Assembly (NCBI GenBank): GCA_020850355.1
Contig: JADZEX010000025.1
Coordinates: forward strand, 1 to 62,367
DNA from: Fimbriimonadaceae bacterium
GTDB taxonomy: Bacteria > Armatimonadota > UBA10988
Length of the DNA: 62,367 nucleotides
Direction of reading: 5' to 3'
A model generated the notes under the pieces. It did no database searches, was not told where the DNA came from, and saw only the letters and a program-made list of their open reading frames with translations. The translations under genes were made by a program, and so were the position numbers. Numbering within the stretch: position 1 is the first letter of the stretch; the number at the start of each line of letters is the position of its first letter. Below, in pieces: positions 3,103-62,367 of this stretch.

Positions 3103-5079
3103 TCAACCCCGCCGCCGGACCTCCGGTTGGCCGTCGCCGTTGGGGTCGCCGCGGCGGTAGGCGGCCAGGTCCAGCCGCGCGCCGAGCGGCTCCGCGGCCA
3201 GCTTCAGGGCCGGGCTGGTGGGGCGCGGCAGGAGGTCCAGGCGCAGCTCGGCAGCGCCGCGCCAGTTGAGGATCGTGGGCGCCTGCTCGGCCAACTCGGG
3301 GAGTGGCGGGGCCAGGTTCAGGCTGTCATCGCTGACGGCCGTGACCTGGCGGCGGACCCCATCGAAGCCGACTTCGACCGGGTCGCCGACCGCAAAGAGC
3401 TGGCGGGCGTCCGGGACGATCAGCCGCTCGGTGGTGAACTCCGGCAGCCGGCGGTTCTCGCTGCGCGCCGAGCAGAGCGGCGCGTTGACGAACAGCGGAT
3501 CGGTGAACTGCGAGTGGACGTCCTGCCCGCTCACCTTCTGGTAATCCGCCAGGTTGGACTGCCAACTGCGGCCCCACGAGAAGAGCGTGCCGCTGAGGCC
3601 CGGCGCGCGCCAGACCAGGTTCTGGTCGCTGACCAGCTCGCCGGCCGTCTGCACGCCAAACGCCGATGTCGGGCCGCCGGGGCAGAGGATGTTGCGCTCC
3701 AGGCGGCAAGCCTGGCCCGAGAAGCTGACGCAGCCCCAGCCGGTGTAGGCCACGGTGTTGCCGCGCAGCACGAAGCGATGGGTGTTGCCGTGCCCCAGAA
3801 TCAGGGCCACCGCTGCGGTCCCGATCACCAGGTTGCCGGCGATGGTGCAGTCCTCAGCGGCCTCCATCATGATCCCCTGCCCGCCGTGTAGCAGCACGTT
3901 GTCGACGATCTGCAGGTTGCGGACCGTGTTGTGGAGCTGCATGTTGTCGGGGTGGCCCCAGCGCGTGTGGTCGTGCAGGTAGTTCTGCCGAATCGTCAGG
4001 TCGGCGCTCTGGTGGCTGATCACCAGCCCGTCGACGGCGTTGTCGGCGACCTCGTTGGCCACGATGCTGCCCTGCCGGCAGGTCATCACCGCGATGCCGT
4101 TGTCGTTCCGCTCGACCAGGTTGCCCTCTACCGTCAGCCCCGTGACATTGCGGCAGTACAGCCCGATCCCCTGGTTGTCGTGGACCCAACAGCGCCGCAC
4201 GGTGATGCCCTGCGGCTGGCCCGACCAGGAACCGATCCCGTGGCTGGCCCCGCCGCGCACCTCAAAGCCCTCGATCACGACCTGCTGCGAGGCGCCCCAA
4301 TCGAGCACGAAGCGGTCGCGCCGCGCGGCCTCCACGGGGGTGGTCGCCGGATCCCAACCAACGGGTGGGTAGAGGTACAGCGTGCCGTCGACCACCGCCC
4401 ACTCGCCGGGCTCGTCGATCAACTCGAGCCGGTTCTGAACCCGGTAGCGGTCGACGTTGGCCTCGACAGTGCGGTCGCGGTAGATCCCGCCGTCCAGTTG
4501 CAGCTCGCCCTTGGTGGCATCGTGCGCGACGATCCGTCGGGTGAGCTGGGCGGTGATGTCGACGTCCCAGAAGAAGAGACTCCCGCCCGCCAGGTTGCCG
4601 GTCCCGAGGTGCGGCGGATCGAGCAGGGTGTTGGTCCCCCCACCGGCCGCCACGAACCAGCCAGCATCGGGCTCGCGGGCCAGCCGCAGCGGGTGGTCGC
4701 CCGCCAACAGCACGGGCGGCTGCCAGGCCAGCGCGGCCTGCCGCAGCTTGGCTTGGAGCGGATGCGCCGCGGCGCAGGGCTGCCAGTCGGTCACCCGATC
4801 GGCGCCGCTGAGTACCACGCCCGGGCCGCTGGCCCGCAGCGTCAGGGGCTGTCCCGGGGCACCGCCGCTGCGCAGCACGACGCTCTCGCGGTAGACGCCG
4901 GGCCGCACCAGGACGGTGTCGCCCGGCCTGGCCACCGCGACGGCGCGGGCGACCGACCGGAACGGCTGCGCGGCCGTCCCCGGCCCGGCCTCGGAGGCCG
5001 TCGGGGCGGCCTGGTCCACCAGCAGTTCAGCCGCGCCACCGGGGCGCAGCAGCAGCAGGATCAGCAGGGCACGCCGCAT
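3103..5079 (-). CDS. Secreted right-handed parallel beta-helix protein
   Basis: The 658-residue protein starts at the ATG at 5079, preceded by GGAG seven bases upstream; a longer in-frame extension to 5238 is open but lacks a signal peptide start. The N-terminus MRRALLILLLLRPGGAA is a signal peptide. Next comes the hallmark opening of secreted beta-helix proteins (AAQPFRSVARAVAVARPGD, then VLVRPGVYRESV), and from about residue 270 to 480 the asparagine-rich ladder repeats (VEGNLVERNDNGIAV, IRQNYLHDH, IAGNLVIG). Proteins of this fold include polysaccharide lyases and glycosidases, but no catalytic residues can be assigned. The C-terminus carries GDPNGDGQPEVRRRG, a calcium-loop-like DPNGDG motif. 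It is divergent from the GH74 gene across 115 bp, suggesting a shared regulatory region for polysaccharide use. Confidence 0.85.
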   Translation of the reverse strand: MRRALLILLLLRPGGAAELLVDQAAPTASEAGPGTAAQPFRSVARAVAVARPGDTVLVRPGVYRESVVLRSGGAPGQPLTLRASGPGVVLSGADRVTDWQPCAAAHPLQAKLRQAALAWQPPVLLAGDHPLRLAREPDAGWFVAAGGGTNTLLDPPHLGTGNLAGGSLFFWDVDITAQLTRRIVAHDATKGELQLDGGIYRDRTVEANVDRYRVQNRLELIDEPGEWAVVDGTLYLYPPVGWDPATTPVEAARRDRFVLDWGASQQVVIEGFEVRGGASHGIGSWSGQPQGITVRRCWVHDNQGIGLYCRNVTGLTVEGNLVERNDNGIAVMTCRQGSIVANEVADNAVDGLVISHQSADLTIRQNYLHDHTRWGHPDNMQLHNTVRNLQIVDNVLLHGGQGIMMEAAEDCTIAGNLVIGTAAVALILGHGNTHRFVLRGNTVAYTGWGCVSFSGQACRLERNILCPGGPTSAFGVQTAGELVSDQNLVWRAPGLSGTLFSWGRSWQSNLADYQKVSGQDVHSQFTDPLFVNAPLCSARSENRRLPEFTTERLIVPDARQLFAVGDPVEVGFDGVRRQVTAVSDDSLNLAPPLPELAEQAPTILNWRGAAELRLDLLPRPTSPALKLAAEPLGARLDLAAYRRGDPNGDGQPEVRRRG

Positions 5080-5194: not shown

Positions 5195-7363
5195 ATGCTG
5201 CGTTGCGGTCTGCTGATCTGCCTGCTCGGTGTGCCCATCGCGCCAGCCTGGGCCGCACCAGCCGCGCCCTATGCCTTCCGCAACGCGACGATCGTCGCCG
5301 GTGGGTTCATGCCTGGCATCGTCTTCCACCCGACCATCGCCGGGCTGGCCTACATTCGGTCTGACATGGGCGGCGCCTATCGGCTGGATCCGGCCACCCG
5401 CCGCTGGCAGCCGCTGCTCGACTTCACCAAGGACTATGTCGAGACCGGCGTCGAGAGCATCGCCTTGGACGCCGCCCACCCGGACCGGGTCTACCTGGCC
5501 TGTGGCACCACCGTGGCGAGTTGGGCGCCCAACGGGTTCCTGCTCCGCAGTGACAACCGTGGCGAGACCTGGGAACGCCTGCCGCTGCCCTTCAAGTGCG
5601 GCGGCAACAGCGATGGCCGGTCGATTGGGGAACGGCTGCTGGTCGACCCCTTGGCCCCCGAGCAGCTCTGGCTGGGTAGCCGTCAGAAGGGCCTTTGGCG
5701 CAGCCGCGACCGGGGCACGACCTGGCAGCCGGTGACCTCGTTCCCGGTCGCCGAGACCAGCGCCGGACGGTGGCCCGGCAGCGGTGTCTGCTTCGTGCTG
5801 GCGGATCCCCGCGGCAGCGCGCCTGGCGGACCCACGCAGACGCTCTACGCCGGTGTCGCCACGCAGCCGCTGAGTCTCTACCGCAGTCGCGACAACGGTG
5901 GCACCTGGACTGCGCTGCCCGGCCAACCCACCGACTGGCTGCCGCACCATGGGGTGCTGGCCAGCAACGGTTGGTTGTACCTGACCTACTGCGACACGCC
6001 GGGACCGAACGGCGTGACCGACAGCCAGGTCTGGCGGCTCGACACCGCGACCGACGCCTGGACCAACATCACGCCGGCGGCCGTGGCCGGCCAGAAGCTC
6101 GGCTACGGCTACGCCGGGCTGGCCGTCGACCGGCGGCAGCCGGCGACGGTGATGGTCGGCACGACCTGTCGCTGGGCCGCCGGCGACGACCAGTGGCGCA
6201 GCATCGATGGCGGGGCTACCTGGCGCCAGGTCGGGCCGACGGCACTGCGCGACGTCAGTCGCAGCCCGTACCTGCGCTGGGGCAAGCCCGAGACGCAACG
6301 CGTCGGGGCCGGCAACTGGCAGGGCAGCATCGTGATCGACCCCTTCAACTCCAACCGCGTGCTCTACGTCACCGGCGCCACCGTCTGGGGTTGCGACGAC
6401 ATCACCAACGTCGACCGCGGGTTGCCGACGCACTGGGTGGTGCGCGGTGAGGGGATCGAGCAGACCGCGGTGCTCGATCTGATCAGCCCGCCCGAGGGGC
6501 CGCCGTTGATCAGCGGTTTGGGCGACATCGGCGGCTTCGTGCACGACGACCTGACCGTCTCGCCGCAGGCCGGCATGATGCGCCCCTACATGACCAACCG
6601 CGCGCTGGACTACGCTGGCGCCGCGCCGCGCCACGTCGTGCGGGTCGGCGATGGCATCGCCGTGCCGGGCTGTCTGTCCACCGACAGCGGCCAGACCTGG
6701 CAAGTCTTCGCGACGGCCCCGGTGGCCGGCGCCAAGAACGGCAGCGTCGCGCTGAGCGCCGATGGACGGGCGGTGCTCTGGTCACCGGGTGGCCAGCCGC
6801 CGTTCCGCAGCACCGACGGCGGGACCACCTGGGCGCGCTGCCAGGGTCTCGAGACTGCCGCCGTCGTGGTGGCCGACCGGGTCGATCCGCTGTTGCTCTA
6901 CGCCCTGCCGGTCAACCGCGACGACTCGCCCGCCCGGCTGCACCGCAGCACCGACGGGGGCGTCACCTTCCAGCCGGCCGCCGCCGGCCTGCGCGGGCGG
7001 CGCTTGCGGGCGGTGCCGGGTCTGACGCGGCAGCTCTGGCTGGCCGGCCCGACCGGCCTCTGGCGTTCAACCGACGCCGGGGAGACCTTCACGGCGCTCG
7101 CCGGCTGCAGTTCGGCGATGTCGGTCGGCTTCGGCCAGGCCGCGCCGGGCCAGACCCATCCGGCCGTCTTCACCGCCGCCACCCGCAGCGGGGTCACCGC
7201 GCTGTACCGCTCCGACGACCTGGGCGGCACCTGGCTCCGGCTGAACGACGAGCAGCACCTGTGGGGCGGGCTCTACGGCTGCCTGACCGGCGACCCGCGG
7301 GTCTACGGCCGGTTCTACCTGGGCACCAACGGCCGCGGCATCATCATCGGCGAGCCCCGCTGA
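5195..7363 (+). CDS. GH74 family xyloglucanase-like secreted hydrolase
   Basis: The 722-residue protein starts at the ATG at 5195, with GAGGAG seven bases upstream; the frame is open further upstream without purpose. Residues 1-21 form a signal peptide ending AWAAP. The sequence then follows the GH74 pattern: GGFMPGIVFHPT, the SDMGGAYRLDP motif with the presumed first catalytic Asp (D57), and LGDIGGFVHDD with the presumed second catalytic Asp (D444). Several Asp-box/BNR motifs (SxDxGxTW type, such as SRDRGTTW, STDSGQTW, STDGGTTW) mark the two seven-bladed propellers of this family. GH74 enzymes cut beta-1,4-glucan backbones of xyloglucan. The length is close to that of a GH74 catalytic module with no carbohydrate-binding domain. 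Substrate specificity cannot be read from sequence alone. Confidence 0.88.
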   Translation: MLRCGLLICLLGVPIAPAWAAPAAPYAFRNATIVAGGFMPGIVFHPTIAGLAYIRSDMGGAYRLDPATRRWQPLLDFTKDYVETGVESIALDAAHPDRVYLACGTTVASWAPNGFLLRSDNRGETWERLPLPFKCGGNSDGRSIGERLLVDPLAPEQLWLGSRQKGLWRSRDRGTTWQPVTSFPVAETSAGRWPGSGVCFVLADPRGSAPGGPTQTLYAGVATQPLSLYRSRDNGGTWTALPGQPTDWLPHHGVLASNGWLYLTYCDTPGPNGVTDSQVWRLDTATDAWTNITPAAVAGQKLGYGYAGLAVDRRQPATVMVGTTCRWAAGDDQWRSIDGGATWRQVGPTALRDVSRSPYLRWGKPETQRVGAGNWQGSIVIDPFNSNRVLYVTGATVWGCDDITNVDRGLPTHWVVRGEGIEQTAVLDLISPPEGPPLISGLGDIGGFVHDDLTVSPQAGMMRPYMTNRALDYAGAAPRHVVRVGDGIAVPGCLSTDSGQTWQVFATAPVAGAKNGSVALSADGRAVLWSPGGQPPFRSTDGGTTWARCQGLETAAVVVADRVDPLLLYALPVNRDDSPARLHRSTDGGVTFQPAAAGLRGRRLRAVPGLTRQLWLAGPTGLWRSTDAGETFTALAGCSSAMSVGFGQAAPGQTHPAVFTAATRSGVTALYRSDDLGGTWLRLNDEQHLWGGLYGCLTGDPRVYGRFYLGTNGRGIIIGEPR

Positions 7364-59868: not shown

Positions 59869-60288
59869 ATGAACTGCGAAGTGTGCCAGCGCGAGCTGGC
59901 CGCCCATGACCTGCCGGACCAGCCGGCGCGTCGCCAGGCGGCGGTCGAAGCGCACCTGGCGCAGTGCCCAGAGTGCCGGCACGAACTGGCCGTCCTGCGG
60001 CGGACCGCGGCCCTGCTGGCGTCGCAACCGCTCGACGAGCCGCCGGCCGGCCTCTGGCAGGGCGTCGAGGCCCGCCTCGCGCAGCCGACTCCCTGGCGGC
60101 TGCCGCGCTGGACTTACGCCGGGGCGGCGGCGCTAGTTGCGGTGCTGGCGGTGGCGGTCTGGCCGCCGGCCGAGGAGTTCCGCGCGACGCCGTACCTCCG
60201 CGACCATTACCGCGTCAGCCTGGGCGGGCCGCTGGGCGATGCGGCCACCGGCGATGTCTTGGCGGCCCTGGCGGAGGAAACGCAGTGA
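59869..60288 (+). CDS. Zinc-finger anti-sigma factor
   Basis: The 139-residue protein starts MNCEVCQRELAAHDL and has the zinc-binding HxxxCxxC motif (HLAQCPEC), then a helical linker and one membrane segment (YAGAAALVAVLAVAVW) and a short periplasmic tail. It is an anti-sigma factor of the ZAS type for the upstream ECF sigma factor. It overlaps the next gene by GTGA. The small periplasmic domain (about 45 residues) suggests that stress sensing relies on the RseB-like protein that follows. Confidence 0.93.
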   Translation: MNCEVCQRELAAHDLPDQPARRQAAVEAHLAQCPECRHELAVLRRTAALLASQPLDEPPAGLWQGVEARLAQPTPWRLPRWTYAGAAALVAVLAVAVWPPAEEFRATPYLRDHYRVSLGGPLGDAATGDVLAALAEETQ

Positions 60289-61262
60289 AGGCTGCCGGGC
60301 TGCTGCTCTTGCTGACTCTGCGGGGCGCCGTCGCCGACGACCTGGCGCTGCTCCGGCTGGCCCTGACTGCGGAGACCAAAGTCGCGCGGCGGGGTACCCA
60401 GACCGTTCAAGTGCAGCCGGCCAACACCCTGGTCAGCAGCAGCGTGGACTTCGCCTGCGACGGTCAGGGGCATAGCCGCCGCGAGCACCGCACTGGCCCC
60501 TCGGCGGGGCTGGTGGTCCTGTCGGCGGCGCCCTGGGAATACCGCCGTCAGGGCAGCAGCGGATCCTGGTTCCGCCAGCCGTTGACCGCCGGCGCGCTCA
60601 ACGACCTCACCTTGGCCAGCCGCATCGCCACCAACTACACCCTCAGCAGCGCGGCCGGTCCGACCCTCGCCGGGCGGCCGACGACCCGCCTCAACCTGAC
60701 CCCGAAGCGCAGCGGCAACCCCCGCCGGCGGCTCTGGCTCGACCGCGCCAGCGGACTCGTGCTGCAAAGCGAGACCGACAACCGCGACGGCCAGTTCATT
60801 GCGCGGACGCGCTACGAGGCAATCACCTTTGGCCCGGTCGACGCCGCGCAGGTGCGCCTGCCGGCGGACGCGGCGGTCGACCGCTCGACCCCGCCGACCG
60901 CCCTCGTGCGTTACGACTCCGTCGCCGCCGCCGAGGCCCGGCTCGGTCACCGGATCGACCTGCCGAGCACCCCGCCGGCGGGCTACAAGCTGGCCGAAGT
61001 CTACCTCCGCGCCTGCCGCCAGGGCGGCTGGACCCCGGTCACCACCTGGTCCGACGGCGTCAACCGCCTGACCCTGATGGCGACCAGCGGGCGCGGCCAA
61101 TCGCGCGGCCGCGGCTGGCGCTGGGGCCAACGCCGACAGTGCGAGGTGCAACCCAGCCGTCTGCAACTGGTGGTCCGTCTGGCCCACGGCCCCGGCGAAG
61201 CGGTGCTGGTCGGCGACCTGGCCCGCGCCCAACTCGAAACGATGCTGCGCTCGCTGCCCTGA
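60285..61262 (+). CDS. RseB/MucB-like periplasmic sigma-factor regulator
   Basis: The GTG at 60285 overlaps the anti-sigma stop; GGAGG lies ten bases upstream (325 residues). It has a signal segment (AAGLLLLLTLRGAVA), a LolA-like N-terminal domain (LTAETKVARRGTQTVQVQPA, YNTLSSAAGPT-type strands, RRLWLDRASGLVLQSETDNR) and a second domain (VRYDSVAAAEARLGHRIDLP). This is the layout of RseB/MucB, which binds lipopolysaccharide or lipid and shields the anti-sigma factor from proteolysis. Thus 58802-61262 probably form one stress-response operon. Confidence 0.88.
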   Translation: MKAAGLLLLLTLRGAVADDLALLRLALTAETKVARRGTQTVQVQPANTLVSSSVDFACDGQGHSRREHRTGPSAGLVVLSAAPWEYRRQGSSGSWFRQPLTAGALNDLTLASRIATNYTLSSAAGPTLAGRPTTRLNLTPKRSGNPRRRLWLDRASGLVLQSETDNRDGQFIARTRYEAITFGPVDAAQVRLPADAAVDRSTPPTALVRYDSVAAAEARLGHRIDLPSTPPAGYKLAEVYLRACRQGGWTPVTTWSDGVNRLTLMATSGRGQSRGRGWRWGQRRQCEVQPSRLQLVVRLAHGPGEAVLVGDLARAQLETMLRSLP

Positions 61263-61275
61263 CGGCGGCGCCGCG

Positions 61276-62367
61276 ATGGGCGGGAGGAGCCGGCGAGCGG
61301 CTGCCGAAACCGCTTGCTCTGTGGTGCTACTCCAGAACGCCTGGTTCGACGTCATGGTCGCGTCTGACTTGCGTGACGTCGTCCAGACGAACACGAAGGC
61401 AATCGAACGCTGCCTCTTCAAGGCCACCGATCCCGGCGACCTGGTGCTCGACCCGACGTGTGTGCGGGCGGGGACGGGGGTCTGGGTGGTTGGGGGACGA
61501 CCCCCCTGTAGTCCCCCCGAAATCGGGGGGACGGGACCGGCGACTGTGGCAGCGACCGCGCCAGACGCTGTTGGCACAAGACCCCCCTGTAGTCCCCCCG
61601 AAATCGGGGGGACGGGCCCGGAGATCGCGGCGGCGGCTGCGGCGGTGACCGCAGGCGGCCTGACTCCCTCCCCGATTTCGGGGAGGGCCGGGGAGGGGTT
61701 ATCCCTCCGCGCCATCGAAACCATACAGCCCGGCGATCAGGTCCTCACCCACGACGGCCAGCCACACCGCGTGCTCCGCGTGATGGCGCGGCGCCACGCC
61801 GGACCGATGGTCGGCCTGCGCTGCGAGCACGGCCCGGTGCTTTGGCTGACCGGCGAGCATCGCGTGCTCTGCCGCAAACGCCACCTCGACCGCGGGGCGG
61901 CGCGGCAATGGACGCGCGGGCAGGTAGGCCACTTCGCTCGTGCCCGAGAGCTGCGCCGCGACAGCACGCCGGCCGAGCAGCGCCTCTGGCCACGGCTCCG
62001 GCGCGCCGCGCTGGGGGCCAAGTTCAGGCGGCAGCACCCGCTCGGGCCCTTCATCGTCGACTTCTACTGCTTCGAGCGCGGCCTCGTGGTCGAGGTCGAT
62101 GGCGACAGTCACTACACGCCCGAGGGCCTGGAGTCCGACAGCGCACGCGACACCTACCTCGCCGGACTTGGTCTCGACGTGCTGCACGTCACCAACGCCG
62201 AGGTGCACGACTCGCTCGAGGCGGTCGTCGAGGCTATCGAGGAGGCGGACCGTGCCGCCGAGCCGATCGAGCGTGGCGACCGGTGCTGGCGCCGTGCCGA
62301 CACGCTCCAGGTCGGCGACATCATCTACCACGGCCCGCACCTCGAACCCGCCGAGCTCACGGCACTG
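61276..62367 (+). CDS. DNA methyltransferase fragment interrupted by an intein with DUF559 endonuclease (runs off the right edge)
   Basis: One frame is open from the ATG at 61276 to the window edge (364 codons, no stop). Residues about 20-61 match the motif I side of a D21/N6_N4-type adenine methyltransferase: VVQTNTKAIERCLFKATDPG then DLVLDPT, where GSGTT should follow. At residue 62 (61459) comes Cys and an intein-type start, CVRAGTGVWVVGG. Hint motifs follow (AIETIQPGDQVLTHDG at residue 146; LTGEHRVLC with His195). Residues about 218-325 are a DUF559/Vsr-like endonuclease: FIVDFYC (Asp262), VVEVDGDSHY (Glu273, Asp275). ADTLQVGDIIYHG then resumes Hint-like text. The methyltransferase's N-terminal motif IV (DPPY) is missing here, so the gene is 5'-truncated or split. 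The intein's end lies outside the window. Confidence 0.8.
   Translation, partial: MGGRSRRAAAETACSVVLLQNAWFDVMVASDLRDVVQTNTKAIERCLFKATDPGDLVLDPTCVRAGTGVWVVGGRPPCSPPEIGGTGPATVAATAPDAVGTRPPCSPPEIGGTGPEIAAAAAAVTAGGLTPSPISGRAGEGLSLRAIETIQPGDQVLTHDGQPHRVLRVMARRHAGPMVGLRCEHGPVLWLTGEHRVLCRKRHLDRGAARQWTRGQVGHFARARELRRDSTPAEQRLWPRLRRAALGAKFRRQHPLGPFIVDFYCFERGLVVEVDGDSHYTPEGLESDSARDTYLAGLGLDVLHVTNAEVHDSLEAVVEAIEEADRAAEPIERGDRCWRRADTLQVGDIIYHGPHLEPAELTAL
61499..61535. repeat. Palindromic repeat, copy 1, inside the intein frame
   Basis: A 37-bp unit, GACCCCCCTGTAGTCCCCCC then GAAATCGGGGGGACGGG, contains the palindromic core CCCCCCGAAATCGGGGGG. It is translated in frame (PPCSPPEIGGTG) between the intein start and the next Hint motif. 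Confidence 0.85.
61580..61616. repeat. Palindromic repeat, copy 2, inside the intein frame
   Basis: Identical over 37 bp to the copy at 61499-61535, in the same orientation, 81 bp (27 codons) downstream, so both keep the same reading frame and the same peptide. Confidence 0.85.
61664..61687. repeat. Related palindromic repeat in inverted orientation
   Basis: CTCCCTCCCCGATTTCGGGG continues AGGG. Its core CCCCGATTTCGGGG is the reverse complement of the core of the two upstream copies (CCCCGAAATCGGGG). It too lies in frame inside the intein, just before the Hint motif at 61711. Confidence 0.75.

Follow-up and report, generated by a model that had tools for sequence, protein, structure and literature searches.

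Does the open reading frame at the end of this contig encode an intein with a DUF559 nuclease and, if so, in what kind of gene does it reside? The window, that is, the whole stretch of 62,367 nucleotides that was analysed, is the whole of contig C26 in a bin of 117 contigs and 6.67 Mb (95% complete) from a Fimbriimonadaceae bacterium. An earlier note, made from the sequence alone, had described here a DUF559/Vsr-like nuclease intein within motif I of a DNA methyltransferase gene whose other half might lie elsewhere. The frame of 364 codons on which it was based is present (61276-62367, plus strand), without a stop and open up to the contig end. The start given to it holds for the open frame but not for the methyltransferase, homology to which spans only from about residue 16 (nt 61321) to VLDPT.

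Features of the window

60285-61262, plus strand: intact neighbour gene, 3' of a sigma factor and an anti-sigma factor; RseB-like in our reading
61321-61458, plus strand: what is left of the N-extein, 46 codons that end in VLDPT and come from a type III-like N6/N4 DNA methyltransferase (intein-less homologue; PADLOC MTase_III)
61459-61494, plus strand: intein block A, CVRAGTGVWVVG, with the Cys1 codon at 61459-61461 (aligned to CVRKGTGVWV of the homologues and to the Mtu RecA mini-intein)
61500-61535, no strand: palindrome 1, CCCCCCTGTAGTCCCCCCGAAATCGGGGGGACGGG; its core occurs 3 times in the window against an expectation of 0.02
61581-61616, no strand: palindrome 2, a copy of palindrome 1
61666-61698, no strand: palindrome 3, CCCTCCCCGATTTCGGGGAGGG plus CCGGGGAGGGG
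61711-61900, plus strand: Hint N-terminal half, with block B TxxH (TGEH) at 61849-61860 (Hint_2; family alignment)
61936-62244, plus strand: DUF559 (EDxHD/Vsr-like) nuclease, in the homing-endonuclease position (Pfam, PDB 3hrl, conserved columns)
62287-62367, plus strand: Hint C-terminal half, start only; the contig ends before block G (HN/C) (family alignment from column ~216)

Profile searches bear out this composition: Pfam DUF559 matches residues 221-323 (2.1e-27), the PADLOC type III methyltransferase profile MTase_III matches residues 34-71 (1e-6), and Hint_2 is found at 1.3e-4, under its curated cut-off. An intein-less homologue matches the N-extein remnant over its residues 420-474 with 55% identity, and the DUF559 domain, in which the E, D, E and D of the EDxHD type are conserved, matches PDB 3hrl (5.9e-15). 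The Cys at 61459 follows VLDPT immediately, as expected for position 1 of an intein, block B reads TGEH, and a single reading frame joins Cys1, the Hint N-terminal half, DUF559 and the first part of the Hint C-terminal half. The AlphaFold model of the window part alone, predicted from a single sequence, had a pLDDT of 41 and was left out of the fold search.

An intein family with a DUF559 nuclease

With the part before DUF559 as a query, complete homologues were found in a search of 201 genomes, and a family profile built from eight copies detected 11 intein copies in 10 genomes among 291 genomes of the phylum, where a clear gap in score set the intein copies (183-440 bits) apart from free DUF559 genes, none of which exceeded 129 bits. 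The junctions in G063 and G060 read VLDPT or VFDPT/CVRKGTG...DUF559...VVHN/CGSGTTAYCAEKWGRRW in one frame. Since the complete homologues pass from VLDPT into the intein Cys and from VVHN into CGSGTT, the site is DPT/CGSG of type III-like N6/N4 methyltransferases. The same intein is found in G074 inside a second methyltransferase family, at LDCF/CGSGTT. The terminal HN and the C-terminal junction (block G), before which the window ends, are found in G063, G060, G074, G025, G198, G269 and G274; the TIGR01443 intein C-terminus profile scores above its cut-off in loci L031 and L032, and the return to the host protein 3' of the intein is seen in L031-L035. Chains of the Mtu RecA mini-intein align with family profile columns 6-77, from Cys1 (column 6) to block B, and again with columns 216-274, from block F to the terminal HN; DUF559 falls between columns 77 and 216, the usual homing-endonuclease slot. 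The complete homologues and this alignment confirm the earlier identification of a DUF559/Vsr-like nuclease intein in motif I.

Weak matches to Hint_2 and PT-HINT were obtained, and they would fit a Hint domain that belongs to a polymorphic toxin with a nuclease rather than to an intein, but methyltransferase text resumes after HN/C in the homologues and no toxin delivery context was seen; we hold this alternative to be extremely improbable, and for the family as such L031-L033 refute it.

The family profile matches PDB 3hrl (4e-25) and, at 5e-5, 3r3p, whose entry describes a mobile intron protein and which we take to be I-Bth0305I. Nuclease columns E110, D138, E149, D164 and R167 are invariant in the 8 copies, and the predicted nuclease residues are kept even in the splicing-dead copy of G001. 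Over Hint and DUF559, pN is 0.15-0.28 against a pS of 0.68-0.95 (G063, G025, G060) with synonymous sites near saturation, and subject to that caveat the comparison indicates constraint on both domains. Intein-less homologues of the host methyltransferase occur in many genomes. On the question of a single origin of the intein DUF559, the tree needs 4 label changes, but one clade is not rejected by the AU test (p 0.29). Searches of IMG/VR, phages and plasmids for such inteins gave DUF559-type matches only. Separately, we noted an unrelated intein with a longer insert and without DUF559 in a DNA polymerase III alpha-like gene (L044, G022:C39).

We favour a lineage of homing inteins into which DUF559 was recruited, found here in a broken or chimeric gene. 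The intein would lie between the Thr and the Cys of the SAM-binding motif DPT/CGSG of a type III-like methyltransferase, and splicing by Hint would follow the standard route of Cys1, TxxH and HN-Cys; the residues of this route that fall within the window are intact, and the others are seen in homologues. DUF559 would be the homing nuclease, cutting intein-less methyltransferase genes, and the GC-rich palindromes in the A-B loop of Hint are part of the element. From its anatomy, mobility of the window intein is plausible; neither homing nor a cut site was seen. Degenerate members of the family (G001, G048) and the spacer frame changes in others, both described below, count against this reading.

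The host gene

The host gene is not whole in the assembly, with 46 N-extein codons left and its 3' part past the contig end, and the intein is therefore read as stranded: the window probably carries the N-terminal two thirds of a DUF559 intein at the DPT/CGSG methyltransferase site, left behind either in a gene that is broken or at the end of a chimeric contig. The absence of motif IV upstream, as the earlier note had it, is real, since the RseB-like gene found there is intact and ends at 61262. The orthologues from G001 and G003 can be aligned with it to the end of its C-terminus, and a gap of 59 nt separates its end from the methyltransferase remnant. Genes downstream of the RseB-like gene, compared with the aim of probing the junction, vary between relatives, and an exact-overlap search of the contig end for a continuation found none.

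The earlier proposal of a fractured gene fared less well. Such a gene would consist of two halves, each with half an intein, and the window would be one of them, with its partner elsewhere in the genome. Searches of the bin, which may be incomplete, with the full-length intein-less homologue and PF01555 found no separate N-terminal half and no other part of the host methyltransferase, and the window is continuous in a single frame from Cys1 through the start of the Hint C-terminal half. The spacer frame changes in G025, G198 and G274 do show that splits at the A-B loop could arise, and in our reading of the sequence a GTG codon follows the frame break of G025. Nevertheless, with no partner half found, we consider a fractured gene very unlikely, and prefer to see in the window a stranded intein whose host gene is broken or chimeric; a fractured gene with a split intein is not demonstrated by it. 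In G025 itself (L100, a single contig) the intein is in two frames, separated in the spacer ~11 conserved residues after Cys1; either a frameshift or a naturally split intein whose N part is very short could account for this.

The junction at 61262-61321 could instead be an assembly error, with an intact methyltransferase-intein gene left unassembled elsewhere. The copy does lie at the very end of a contig of a metagenome-assembled genome, intein repeats break assemblies (the G269 contig also ends there), and neither half of the host is in the bin. On the other hand, no repeat was seen at the junction, and an intact host gene is missing in 5 of the 11 copies, namely the window, G198, both copies of G048 and G001. 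The N-extein of G198 is down to ~45 residues and its C-extein is cut by a repeat; one of the two G048 copies has a stop, and HN has become HV; in G001, Cys1 is replaced by Met, TxxH by TPAT, HN is lost and there is no extein. The copies without host parts in G001 and G048 sit well inside their contigs. We therefore regard a chimeric contig end as rather unlikely. These copies show inteins that outlast the decay of their host gene.

Palindromes in and around the intein

The three GC-rich palindromes take up the stretch between 61500 and 61700, which the earlier note did not mention. Perfect hairpins reach 8.9 per kb in the spacer between blocks A and B, against 0.5-0.6 in the remaining intein and the flanks, and at least one spacer palindrome is present in 8 of 9 measured copies, the ninth (G274) having an imperfect one. 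The window's own genome has 11 sites that match CCCTCCCCGNNNNCGGGGAGGG with no more than 2 mismatches, and 5 of these sites lie at its only two DUF559 genes; the sole occurrence in G025 (a complete genome in a single contig of 3.4 Mb, 1 mismatch) falls within the intein, and all 4 copies of G060 are on the intein contig. Scattered palindromes number 114 in G074 and 71 in G274. A blast comparison of intein spacers with the flanks of free DUF559 genes of the same genomes found no shared copies, so that the link between DUF559 and palindromes is one of type and not of identical sequence.

The other DUF559 gene of the window's genome (L004, G000:C71, 1489-2068) is flanked by a second palindrome family, two further copies of which lie at the start of contig C97 (L136, G000:C97, 53-142); it seems that each DUF559 gene of this genome is accompanied by a repeat type of its own. 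Locus L098 of G074 contains, at 3443-3515 and 5672-5746, methyltransferase fragments of ~73 nt between palindromes, one upstream of the methyltransferase gene and one within the intein, both corresponding to the region just after the intein site and 90-92% identical to the local gene.

DUF559 outside inteins

Of 42 free DUF559 genes, 35 have a hairpin no more than 150 nt away, as against 22 of 55 other ORFs. Flanking inverted repeats, defined by a score of at least 16 within 300 nt of DUF559, were detected at 19 of the 35 DUF559 loci that had not been picked for long frames, viral contigs included, and at 10 of 26 once the viral contigs, which include near-copies, were removed; controls gave 1 in 122 other ORFs, 1.9% for mismatched pairs and none among 305 positions chosen at random. 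In other phyla, 1 of 6 DUF559 loci had them.

DUF559 was also found embedded in ordinary genes, in cases that came from long frames and so speak to existence, not frequency. YbeY is usually essential. The ybeY gene of G274 (L126, G274:C28:2000-4300) carries an in-frame, palindrome-bounded DUF559 cassette between TDVLSF and LGDIVIS, and its relatives in G267, G275 and G276 have no cassette. HsdM of a type I system in G040 (L140, G040:C26, at a contig end) is interrupted in frame by a DUF559 cassette whose inverted ends read GCCTCACCCCC...GGGGGTGAGGC, and the uninterrupted HsdM of G063 represents the empty site. In G262, MurD leads into a DUF559 cassette that continues up to the contig end, and at that site MurD of G267 has just a short palindrome-coded peptide (L160/L161 pair). 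N6/Eco57I-type methyltransferases of G126, G275 and G267 (L127, L128, L130) contain DUF559 in frame, adjoining motif I or falling between motifs I and IV. By our reading of the sequences, DUF559 would also be fused to a HAD phosphatase (G050) and to a CCA-adding enzyme (G168, G152).

These observations hint at a little-noticed mobile element, as they tie DUF559 to palindromic repeats and in-frame insertion: DUF559 travels with GC-rich palindromes and can sit in ordinary genes. It could then be primarily the nuclease of a palindrome-bounded cassette, for which the intein is one in-frame home among several; the A-B palindromes would then be related to the cassette ends, but short and non-autonomous. 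The inverted repeats at free loci (19/35, or 10/26 non-viral, versus 1/122 other genes), the cassettes in YbeY and HsdM with uninterrupted homologues, and the distribution of palindromes in the window's genome, G025 and G060 all agree with this. However, the DUF559 of the intein has no palindromes at its own edges and occupies exactly the homing-endonuclease slot, colinear across members; the scattered palindromes of G074 and G274 and the low count in other phyla also argue against it, and neither excision nor target-site duplication was seen. We consider it doubtful as an account of the intein, and continue to favour a homing intein lineage that recruited the nuclease.

DUF559 is nonetheless a candidate mobiliser of palindromes. 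We put forward only tentatively, as slightly less doubtful, a scheme in which DUF559 proteins would be the enzymes of widespread palindrome- or TIR-bounded elements that enter genes in frame, essential ones included, with short GC-rich palindromes as their non-autonomous offspring, and in which the methyltransferase inteins captured the nuclease. Such elements may be a new mobile class. If DUF559 mobilises palindromes, it would provide the enzyme that has been lacking for repeats described decades ago, and a nuclease-coding member would join the Rickettsia-type in-frame palindromic elements.

Comparison with known systems

DUF559 is a common domain whose function is unknown according to Pfam, and it is seen here in a coherent intein family. 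The idea of a DUF559 intein is not wholly new, since a Thermosynechococcus gene containing DUF559 was assigned to the EDxHD family in the intein section of a genome paper (PMC9403480). VsrA, a DUF559 protein of Caulobacter, is required for the DNA damage response in cells without a cytosine methyltransferase (PMC12907096). Judging from titles and abstracts, none of 14 papers that name DUF559 links it to palindromes.

The nuclease families of inteins all occupy one site (PMC6801210). Like canonical inteins with a homing endonuclease, such as Mtu RecA, the present family has Cys1, TxxH and, in the homologues, HN/Cys, with the nuclease slot between the Hint halves; those inteins have a LAGLIDADG nuclease, whereas here we find DUF559 and palindrome arrays in the A-B loop. 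EDxHD enzymes have been described for phage group I introns (PMC3943268). By profile, I-Bth0305I (PDB 3r3p, 5e-5) has a related EDxHD nuclease fold, but the nuclease of the present family is nested within a continuous intein. The known EDxHD cases are reportedly a group I intron (I-Bth0305I) and nucleases between split halves, in the fractured-gene inteins that Dassa et al. are said to have described in 2009 (cited in PMC6801210).

The Rickettsia palindromic elements, which insert in frame in genes, and REP/RAYT and TIRYT (PMC10969869, PMC3733652) share with the palindromes described here the ability of palindromic repeats to enter genes in frame, and in REP/RAYT or TIRYT a dedicated enzyme gene is likewise flanked by repeats or TIRs. 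In those systems the enzyme is a tyrosine transposase, whereas here it would be the DUF559 nuclease, as the putative agent of mobilisation.
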